The notes below the pieces were generated by a model. It ran no database searches, was not told the DNA's origin, and saw only the letters and a list, made by a program, of their open reading frames with translations. A stretch of DNA of 64,000 bases, from positions 62,001 through 126,000 of the forward strand of contig NZ_AWTC01000002.1 of assembly GCF_000497245.1 (NCBI RefSeq), given 5' to 3'. This document shows, piece by piece, positions 23,483 to 37,164 of this stretch (the first letter of the stretch is position 1; each line of letters opens with the position of its first letter). The position numbers were made by a program, and so were the translations under genes. The stretch is from Sporolactobacillus laevolacticus DSM 442 (GTDB lineage: Bacteria; Bacillota; Bacilli; Bacillales; Sporolactobacillaceae).

Positions 23483-23917
23483 TTATTGCACAATTTTTTC
23501 TGTCGTGTAGACATGAGTCACTGTACCACTTGTTAGGAAGCTATTTATTTTATTCTTGACCATATTTTCTAAATTGGAGAGTCCTGCCTGATCTTGCAGA
23601 TCCTGCGGAGTCATCCCCGACACCGTATAAATGACCGCATTTTTCACTTGAAATGAGCGTTTCTCAAGCTCATCTTTCGCGTCTTTATTTGACACTTGGA
23701 TATTAAAATCCAATTTGATAAAATGATCGCCTTTAATATTGGTGGTAATTTCACCAGTTGCAACGGTAAGATCTTTCACTATCTCATCAATGTTCGGATC
23801 CTTATTCTCTGCACTCCCGTTACCAACGCCTGACATGATGAAAAAGGCGGCGACTGTTCCAATGATCATCAGAACCATGAAAATAAACAGTATATTCATT
23901 CCTCGGCTTTTGAACAT
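23483..23917 (-). CDS. fliL: flagellar basal body-associated protein FliL
   Basis: Single-pass membrane protein next to the stator. The N-terminal helix (residues 8-30) is followed by an extracytoplasmic domain with FIKLDFNIQVSNKDAKDEL and a C-terminal KNKINSFL-TSGTVTHVYTTEKIVQ-like end, typical of FliL. 144 aa. The ATG overlaps the swrD end by 22 bases and has AGGTG upstream. Confidence 0.94.
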   Translation of the reverse strand: MFKSRGMNILFIFMVLMIIGTVAAFFIMSGVGNGSAENKDPNIDEIVKDLTVATGEITTNIKGDHFIKLDFNIQVSNKDAKDELEKRSFQVKNAVIYTVSGMTPQDLQDQAGLSNLENMVKNKINSFLTSGTVTHVYTTEKIVQ

Positions 23918-24132
23918 CTCAACACACCTTCTTCCGCAGACAAGCCCGACAATAATGAGATCTTTTTGAGAAACTGAATCATCTTCCGGTTAACTTCATC
24001 CGGTGATTCTTTGACAATAAGCTTTTTTCCATTTGTCAGAGTGATCGTCGTATCAGGCAACGACTCCACCTGTTCAATTAAAAATGCATTAAGTATGAAG
24101 GATTGATTATTAAAATGTGTTAACTGGATCAT
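23896..24132 (-). CDS. swrD: SwrD/FlbD-like small flagellar protein (YlzI)
   Basis: Small cytoplasmic FlbD-family protein; in B. subtilis SwrD raises motor torque for swarming. The conserved core is IQLTHFNNQSFILNAFLIEQ, then PDTTITLTNGKKLIVKES. The frame is open upstream, but family proteins begin Met-Ile just before the core, giving ATG 24130-24132 and 78 aa. A GAGG abuts this ATG, so the ribosome site is poor and the start is less certain. It lies between flgE and fliL. Confidence 0.88.
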   Translation of the reverse strand: MIQLTHFNNQSFILNAFLIEQVESLPDTTITLTNGKKLIVKESPDEVNRKMIQFLKKISLLSGLSAEEGVLRCSKAEE

Positions 24133-34499: not shown

Positions 34500-34538
34500 G
34501 GACTTTTGGTTACAAAATAAAATTTGTACCAAAAGTCC
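34500..34538 (-). terminator. terminator after codY
   Basis: Long minus-strand stem GGACTTTTGGTaCAAA / TTTGtAACCAAAAGTCC with an AT loop, followed by TTATTTGT. It separates codY from the fla/che operon. It lies 38 bases past the codY stop. Confidence 0.75.
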
Positions 34539-34576
34539 CTCTCAAATTCTTACTAATTTAATTAATGGTGATGCTC

Positions 34577-35353
34577 TTATTCACCCTTAATTCGATTCAG
34601 CTCATAGAGAAATTTATCATTTAACACTTTAATATACGTACCCTTCATACCAAGCGACCGTGATTCGATAACTCCTGCACTTTCCAGTTTTCTAAGCGCA
34701 TTGACGATTACTGAACGTGTGATTCCGACACGGTCGGCAATTTTGCTTGCAACAAGCAATCCTTCTTTTCCGTCCAGTTCTTCAAAAATATGCTCAATTG
34801 CTTCTAATTCACTATAGGAAAGCGAGCCGATAGCCATTTGCACGATCGCTTTTTCGCGCGCCTCTTCCTCAACCTCATCTGTTTTTTCACGCAGAATTTC
34901 CATACCAACAACTGTCGCACCATATTCTGCTAAAATCAGATCTTCATCTGTAAATGTTTCGTTCAATCTCGAAAGAATAAGTGTCCCCAGTCGTTCTCCA
35001 CCACCGACGATCGGGACAACGGTTGTCAAACCGTTTTCAAACAGATCCTTATTTTCATCGGGAAAAACACTGAATTCACTATTTACATCAAGATTTGGCG
35101 ATGTCTGCGCAACCATAAATAAATTTTGTGTGTACGTATCAGGGAATTGCCTGCTCTCAAACATCTTTTGCATGCGTTCATTCTCAAACTCAAGCTTCAG
35201 AGATAAGCCCAGGATCTTGCCACGGCGGCTTACAACGAACGTATTCGTTTGAATGACATCACGGAGCGTTTGAGCCATTTCATTAAAGTCGACTTGTGTT
35301 TTTGTTCCTTGAAGCAATTGATTAATCTTCCTCGTTTTTTCTAATAATGTCAT
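34577..35353 (-). CDS. codY: GTP- and branched-chain-amino-acid-sensing transcriptional repressor CodY
   Basis: Global regulator of nutrient-limitation, motility and competence genes. 258 aa. The N-terminal GAF domain has [14 protein letters not shown] and [10 protein letters not shown]. The C-terminal winged helix has [20 protein letters not shown] and [23 protein letters not shown] at 35353 with CAGGAGG upstream. In B. subtilis codY is last in xerC-hslV-hslU-codY; here only an hslU fragment precedes it, and its promoter must lie in or beyond that fragment. Confidence 0.98.
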
Positions 35354-35387
35354 CTTTATTCCTCCTGAGTAACCTAATAGTCTTTTT

Positions 35388-35700
35388 TAAAATAAACTGG
35401 TTGAGATTATGGTTCTTACAATGATCGACAGCTTTTTTTGCCAGCGAATCCAAGGGACCACCTCGTGTCCTGAAACTAAAATCAGGTATCGCAAAAGAGT
35501 AAGCTTTAAGCAATTTTCCCAAAATTGTATGTAACCCTCTCGCACCAATGTTATCTGATGCCAATAGGTAGATTAAACTGCCAATCTTGCCTGTCCATAT
35601 TTTCGTCAGAATATTGAATCTTTAAACATCTCCAAAAATCAGAGCTTCGGCATGACCGGCATTTGTCACACTGAACCTCTTCTCTCTTGATATTTCGGCT
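35388..35700 (-). pseudogene. hslU: decayed 3' fragment of hslU (clpY), ATPase subunit of HslUV
   Basis: The frame at 35564-35388 reads SDNIGARGLHTILGKLLK and ends DHCKNHNLNQFIL. This matches the C-terminus of HslU (TDNIGARRLHTIMEKLLE ... QFIL). The middle (residues 30-48) is diverged. The native stop after QFIL is lost, so the frame runs on 21 codons into codY. Further upstream, pieces of HslU appear in alternating frames: KIQYSDENMD resembles the xIxFSDEAID segment, and VTNAGHAEAL resembles PTNALxxxYEAL; in-frame stops lie between. No Walker A or B part remains. It sits exactly where hslU sits in B. subtilis. Confidence 0.85.
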
Positions 35701-35811
35701 AAGATTCACGTTATTTTAATAGTTTACCGTTTTCATTCGGAAAAACAGCGCTTTGATTTGGCAAATGATAAACTATTCTAAATAAACAGTAAAAAAGGGG
35801 ACAGACAAATC

Positions 35812-35850
35812 TTGCTAGTTCATGTTAGCACATGTTTTCCTAATTAGCAA
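35812..35850 (-). terminator. possible trmFO terminator (weak inverted repeat)
   Basis: Nested inverted repeats TTGCTA/TAGCAA and CATGT/ACATG begin 7 bases after the trmFO stop, followed 15 bases later by CCCCTTTTTT on the minus strand. Low GC stem, so only tentative. Confidence 0.4.
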
Positions 35851-35856
35851 TAAAAT

Positions 35857-37164
35857 TTACAGTTTAATAACAACATTCTGAATTGTATTCAAGGCGCGTT
35901 CAGCATAACGAGCAGCCCGTTCACTCTTATCCCTAATTCGTTCTTGCAGGGGCGGCAACAAACCAAAGTTTGCATTCATCGGTTGAAAATTCTTAGGATT
36001 TGCTGTTGTGATGTAGTGAACCATACTGCCAATTACCGTTTCTTGTGGGAAAACCACAGGATCAGATCCTGTCACCAATCTAGCAGCATTGATCCCTGCG
36101 ATCAGCCCTGAGGCAGCAGATTCAACGTATCCTTCAACACCTGTCATCTGCCCTGCAAAAAATAAATCTTGCCGCCTTTTCGTTTGATACGTCGGCTCAA
36201 GCAGAAGCGGTGAATTCAAAAAGGTATTGCGATGCATCACACCATAACGAACAATCTCAGCATTTTCAAGTCCTGGGATCATTTGGAACACTTTTTTCTG
36301 TTCACCCCATTTTAAGTGCGTCTGAAATCCGACAATATTAAATAGGGTGCCGGCTGTGTTATCCTGGCGTAGCTGTACAACGGCATATGGCCGTTTGCCG
36401 GTTTTAGGATCTTCCAATCCGACAGGCTTTAGTGGTCCGAACAGCAATGTTTTCGCTCCCTGTCTTGCCATGATTTCAACAGGCATGCAGCCGCTGAAAT
36501 ATTTCTCTTGTTCAAATTCCTTTAATGGCGCTGTTTCAGCAGTGATCAGTGCTTGGAAAAAAGCTTCAAATTCCTCCTTATTCATTGGGCAATTTAGATA
36601 GGCTGCATCTCCTTTATCATATCGGGATTTTAAATACACTTTATCGTGATCAATGGTTTCTCCAGATATAATTGGCGCCGCTGCATCATAAAAATAGAAA
36701 TATTCCTCTCCGGTCAATTGTTGCAGGTTTGCTGAGAGCGATTCCGATGTCAGAGGTCCTGTTGCAATAACCGTCGGGCCTTCCGGGATTTCCAACATCT
36801 CTTCATCAACAACTGTCACATTTGGCATTTCTCTGAGCTTTGACGTCACAATCCCCGAAAAATCATGACGGTCGACTGCTAATGCCCCGCCTGCGGGCAC
36901 AGACGCTGTGTCTGCCGCCGCCATGATTAAGGAATCGAGCCGACGCATCTCTTCCTTTAAAATGCCAACTGCATTCGTCATACTGTTCGATCGTAACGAA
37001 TTGGTGCAGACTAATTCTGCAAATTGACCCGTGTGGTGGGCCGGTGTCTGCTTTCTCGGTCGCATTTCAAACAGAGTCACCGGTATGCCTCGTTTCGCGA
37101 TCTGCCAGGCTGCCTCGCTTCCTGCCAGCCCTGCACCAACCACATTTACCGACTGTCTTGCCAT
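35857..37164 (-). CDS. trmFO: methylenetetrahydrofolate-tRNA (uracil-5-)-methyltransferase TrmFO
   Basis: Folate- and FAD-dependent enzyme making m5U54 in tRNA. The N-terminal FAD site [20 protein letters not shown] leads into [30 protein letters not shown] is in the C-terminal FAD region. 435 aa. The ATG has GAGGAG upstream. The order topA-trmFO is conserved in Bacilli. Confidence 0.98.

Follow-up and report, generated by a model that had tools for sequence, protein, structure and literature searches.

Results

The spacer between trmFO and codY holds a remnant of hslU

The window, that is the whole stretch of 64,000 nucleotides analysed here, belongs to a genome of 3.59 Mb in 32 contigs (99.77% complete; G000 below) and carries on its minus strand, in this order, topA, trmFO, a spacer of 503 bp, codY and flgB, in agreement with the place given by the first-pass annotation. 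The codY gene (34577–35353, minus strand) encodes 258 aa and was assigned from its open reading frame and a CodY profile match (E = 1.3e-120); its ribosome-binding site AGGAGG lies at 35361–35366 (minus strand), GGAGG being kept in 9/9 short spacers and AGGAGG in 8/9. Among the matches listed, the best named CodY relative was Terrilactibacillus laevilacticus (85%), the closest records being possibly absent from that list. The upstream neighbour trmFO (35857–37164, minus strand; assigned as an open reading frame) is present in the window and in 13 regions of relatives.

Within the spacer, positions 35388–35561 of the minus strand (C2:97388-97561) match the HslU profile at positions 384 to 441 of 441 (E = 1.9e-6). 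The first-pass annotation had placed an hslU fossil here, in front of codY, and had suggested a tBLASTn comparison with HslU of Bacilli. Intact HslU proteins of relatives indeed matched the spacer with E = 1.7e-11 and 51.2 bits, compared to 25.8 bits for the best of 300 Markov-shuffled spacers, and we regard the piece as confirmed, by homology and position, as a real fossil of the HslU C-terminus. It comprises 57–58 codons. The last 57 align with the HslU of the relative G009 (47% identity) in a single open frame without a stop, so the supposed wiped-out middle with in-frame stops gives way to a piece that is diverged rather than erased. The native stop after QFIL is lost, as had been proposed, and the frame continues beyond the codY start (ORF 35322-35564). 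One frame switch was noted, since a second conserved piece, island 1 (35602–35627), sits in a frame other than that of the C-terminal piece. Homology is thus combined with truncation, a frameshift and a lost stop at the orthologous place between trmFO and codY, as in a pseudogene, and neither a full-length HslU match over the cut-off nor an HslV partner, as a functional HslU ATPase would have, was found in G000. A profile search of this genome gave no hslV match at E 0.001, and nothing exceeded the family cut-off for hslU, the top matches being three pieces of one 430-aa frame that is presumably ClpX; loss of HslUV by decay, with no intact copy found elsewhere, is borne out.

HslUV was lost at least twice in the genus, and long ago in this lineage

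Among 15 genomes of the genus, hslV is present in 5 and missing in 10, and hslU exceeds the cut-off in the same 5 genomes. The distance from trmFO to codY is 412–665 bp in 9 genomes without hslV and 2.2–2.4 kb in the 5 that keep it. In one of the keepers, G010, hslU (G010:C1:2121761-2123151) shows a single-base deletion relative to G009, which may reflect a sequencing error or one more loss under way.

In a tree of four neighbour genes eight of the losers form one clade with support 100/100, and a single clade of all ten losers is rejected (p = 5e-8), which makes the loss in G014, placed apart from the eight, a separate one. On this tree hslUV has been lost at least twice in the genus. G012 falls outside the eight-genome clade in the best tree; joining it to the clade is not rejected (p = 0.349), and G012 was dropped as a proven independent loss. 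A test grouping the seven spacer genomes with G012 without G003 (p = 0.006) was set aside, because G003 lies within the clade. At the 4-fold sites of the neighbour genes, the seven clade genomes that have the spacer share a mean pairwise identity of 0.35–0.42 (0.392 over 466 sites), which is near saturation. Since the loss is common to a well supported clade of such depth, the loss in the window's lineage is, judged from these genes, old, and not recent as first described.

In an order-wide sample of 150 genomes hslV was missing in 4 only, all of this genus, in which HslUV is dispensable. The tenth loser, G003, gave no CodY match; in its trmFO (L054, G003:C12:76000-92000) roughly 90 codons are followed directly by sequence that matches ORF 23486-23989 of the window. 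This would fit a deletion, some 13 kb long in window coordinates, that took codY and flagellar-looking neighbours.

The first-pass annotation had also listed xerC as gone from the site. It is absent, and it is likewise absent between trmFO and hslV in the genomes that keep hslVU, where the two genes are about 200 bp apart, so this loss is older than, and separate from, that of hslUV. No XerC over the curated cut-off was found in any of the 15 genomes (best per genome 203–256 bits vs 335); for these two reasons one Xer recombinase may be enough for the genus.

A candidate promoter is kept beside trmFO in losers and keepers alike

Directly after trmFO lies P1 (35822–35850, minus strand), TTGCTA-17-TAACAT, whose second hexamer is preceded by TG. 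The pattern TTGC-N14-TRTGYTAMCAT occurs in 14/14 genomes, at spacer position 6–7 and nowhere else in the 14 regions, and its spacing is identical with or without hslVU (5 of the 14 genomes have hslV). P1 is the natural candidate for the ancestral promoter of hslVU-codY and could drive codY today, its conservation being the one argument for it: measured against a sigma-A promoter (two hexamers close to consensus, 16–18 nt apart), it has 8/12 consensus letters and was therefore left unlisted by a consensus scan with a threshold of 9/12. That scan found one site in 35300–35900, compared to 2.1 in shuffles, and thus lends no support to promoters there. Because P1 is kept beside trmFO and outside 35388–35700 in all 14 genomes, losers and keepers, codY need not depend on a promoter inside the debris, contrary to what had been concluded for it.

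Two islands of the decayed gene are conserved beyond neutral expectation

Seven main-clade genomes (G000, G001, G002, G004, G008, G011, G013) of the nine with short spacers were aligned and compared for identity. Most of the spacer is scrambled outside the conserved pieces. The best 24-column windows fall on island 1 (0.929), island 2 (0.865) and P1 (0.841); the highest value in 5000 column shuffles of the spacer was 0.81, 0/5000 reaching any of the three, and one million random draws of 24 4-fold columns gave a maximum of 0.623. With identities so far above the near-saturated 4-fold expectation, the alignment shows these three short pieces to have been kept by selection, which the first-pass annotation had missed in treating the region as debris. 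Island 1 (35602–35627, minus strand) corresponds to the hslU codons (G)IKIxFSDE, with the core AATATTCTGACGA at 35603–35615, about 250 bp before codY; the exact core AATWTTCTGACGA occurs once in the whole genome, at this place. Island 2 (35511–35555, minus strand) lies within the fossil and corresponds to the codons NIGARRLHTILxKL, in which the DNA sequence itself is conserved.

Two losers fall outside the main clade in the best tree. G012 matched the intact region of G006 at island 1 (25/27 bases, E = 3.5e-6) and at P1, and otherwise only by 12 bases at E = 0.93, which is chance level. G014, the separate loss, retains P1 together with some of the leader that precedes hslV, and has no island.

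The island 1 codons are constrained at silent sites in intact hslU genes

We then considered 83 intact hslU genes, 4 from the genus and 79 of the 80 named loci (the intact L120 was left out), and scored synonymous conservation against codon shuffles within each gene. The strongest peak, where z reaches 18.8, covers the codons ALLQTEGISLEFSDEAIHKIAE; elsewhere in hslU the maximum was 11.7, near the gene start. In a subset of 51 rows drawn from the 83 (the 4 genomes of the window's genus and one row for each of 47 named genera), the 18 highest-scoring windows out of 459 all lay over the ALLQTEGISLEFSDEAIHKIAE codons, with an excess of up to 0.252, compared to at most 0.085 for hslV as a control (43 rows, taken from 43/47 of the named loci). 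Since the island 1 codons are the strongest peak, codon conservation shows that in many Bacilli the intact hslU has a DNA element embedded in its codons, upstream of codY.

Its usual form is GAA GGT ATA nnn nTT GAA TTT TCT GAC GAT GCT ATT, with the GGT codon 258–432 bp before codY in the 83 genes. GGTATA is exact in 50/83, TTTTCNGAC in 47/83 and both in 40/83. An overlapping reading frame behind the constraint was discarded, as every one of the five other frames, followed over 40 codons, runs into a stop in at least 71/83 genomes; an RNA fold was likewise discarded, since folding 24 intact genes gave no consensus structure where the element lies. Among the literature matches listed, to the extent that their text was available, no paper dealt with an hslU-embedded element or with hslUV loss in this genus.

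The element is weak or missing in several genomes that we take to be of Planococcaceae type. Eight loci (L116, L121, L126, L128, L077, L103, L123 and L127, of Lysinibacillus, Bhargavaea and Planococcus) have an hslU without it and hslU-codY gaps of 81–95 bp, into which the control of codY may have moved. At the element's place the hslU of Lentibacillus (L133, L134, L120) has the inverted repeat TTTACAG-N6-CTGTAAA. One locus, L076, titled Chryseobacterium sp. ISL-80, has a Bacillus-like hslU-codY arrangement and is probably mislabelled.

Island 2 contains a CodY-box-like site

Island 2 includes AATTTTGGGAAAATT (35512–35526, minus strand), with 2 mismatches to the CodY box AATTTTCWGAAAATT. Places with at most 2 mismatches number 37 in the 3.59 Mb genome, compared to 25 for the reversed control, a mild enrichment; at this frequency a spacer of 503 bp should hold about 0.005 such places, a value calculated for a site that was noticed after the fact. 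We took as a predicted operator, by a threshold of our own choice, a conserved site with at most 3 mismatches to AATTTTCWGAAAATT. Island 2 passes in 6/7 genomes (2 mismatches in G000, G004 and G011; 3 in G001, G008 and G013), the site being lost in G002. Island 1 stays beyond the threshold, with more than 4 mismatches in G000, G001, G008, G011 and G013 and 4 in G002, G004 and G012, and was ruled out as a good CodY box in the source genome. Two of the letters in its invariant CTGACGA disagree with the box. In 12 intact regions scanned, the island 1 site had 3–4 mismatches in 8 and was not shown in 4; the count was 3 in L087, L112 and L131.

Discussion

The reading that we favour on balance takes the stretch as what is left of an hslU that died long ago, with cis-regulatory DNA retained for codY: P1 would drive codY and the islands would tune it, perhaps through CodY autoregulation. 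Its broader part, that the conserved pieces have been kept as regulatory DNA for codY, we consider probable with some confidence on the comparative evidence; autoregulation by roadblock is the likeliest single mechanism and is proposed tentatively. The old hslVU-codY promoter P1 would now drive codY alone, and the islands would lie in the transcribed codY leader, about 160–270 bp before codY, as candidate binding sites tuning its transcription. CodY bound to the leader could then stop RNA polymerase, giving negative autoregulation. The factor at island 2 would be CodY, from its CodY-box-like site, and that at island 1 either CodY or something else. In the parts of the literature available to us CodY, whose box is given there, is described as acting by roadblock and at internal sites (PMC10415144; PMC4760761), with HslUV repressed by CodY in Listeria (PMC4760761), and codY as autoregulated in several Firmicutes genera (PMC9318921). 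The main text of a CodY ChIP paper on S. aureus has no mention of hslU or hslV (PMC10470025), and for B. subtilis the available portions of papers on GlnR, on DnaA and on CodY contain nothing at clpY/hslU. A published CodY peak in B. subtilis clpY may exist. Against the favoured reading stand the weak fit of island 1 to the CodY box, the loss of the box from island 2 in G002, the merely mild enrichment of the box in this genome, the silence of the S. aureus ChIP text on hslU and hslV, the low consensus score of P1, the retention of P1 without islands in G014 and the incompleteness of the element in many intact genes, GGTATA and TTTTCNGAC being both exact in fewer than half of them.

That the gene is simply dead, functionless and by chance still recognisable, as the first-pass annotation had it, would account for the real HslU homology, the lost stop, the frame switch and a spacer that is mostly scrambled. 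We nevertheless consider plain decay improbable, because it leaves unexplained both the islands, which lie far above neutral expectation, and the silent-site constraint on the island 1 codons in 83 intact genes; separate and very recent losses in the seven genomes, which could rescue it, are opposed by the shared reduced layout and the clade support. Even less credible, to the point of being scarcely worth retaining, is the idea that the 80-aa ORF 35322-35564 encodes a novel small protein derived from the HslU tail: the source genome does have an open frame with a TTG start, but the relatives do not keep it, HslU tail matches being weaker and partial in G002, G004, G008 and G011 and absent below E 0.1 in G001, G012, G013 and G014. 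An RNA-level element in the codY leader (a structure, a processing site or a small-RNA target) would lie within the transcript in both intact and decayed genomes; it appears unlikely, given that the window from 34500 to 36500 has no Rfam match at gathering score and that folding of the 24 intact genes gave no consensus at the element.

More serious is the alternative that island 1 serves either as a promoter close to codY or as the operator of some factor distinct from CodY, which we hold to be a real possibility. The conservation of island 1 exceeds the CodY box, GAAGGTATA and CTGACGATGCTATTC being about as constant as AATTTTC, and TATAAA stands 5′ of the core in 5/7 genomes. As a promoter it fits less well, since no convincing -35 was seen by eye at a proper spacing and the one site of the consensus scan, which shuffles outnumber, lies elsewhere in the spacer. 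The more specific form of this alternative, in which a cis-acting DNA element of about 50 bp in the hslU codons of many Bacilli (usual form GAAGGTATAnnnnTTGAATTTTCTGACGATGCTATTC) controls codY through a non-CodY factor and has outlived its host gene, is conceivable and somewhat more speculative.

If retained regulatory DNA is indeed what the fossil holds, as we favour, a regulatory element inside a protease gene would explain the silent-site constraint in hslU, and deletion or recoding of hslU in model Bacilli may disturb codY, which stands at the top of the nutrient response in many Firmicutes. The genus would offer a natural experiment, since hslU was lost at least twice and the retained pieces would reveal what codY needs.

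Compared to HslU/ClpY (TIGR00390) of the Bacilli operon xerC-hslV-hslU-codY, the fossil agrees in place, order and C-terminal sequence (NIGARxLHTIL...QFIL), whereas in G000 the profile finds the last 58 positions only, and the stop, the ATPase domain and the hslV partner are missing. Island 2 resembles operators of the CodY-box type (AATTTTCWGAAAATT), as used in roadblock repression and in codY autoregulation, by 13/15 letters and a place before codY, and published CodY systems of other genera use both internal sites and autoregulation; the islands differ in being predicted sites that derive from coding sequence, island 1 with a poor fit. With the intragenic regulatory sites of bacterial coding sequences the locus shares a double role, one stretch coding for protein and holding conserved cis-acting DNA as well. 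Here, however, the element has outlasted its host gene, so that the two constraints separate.
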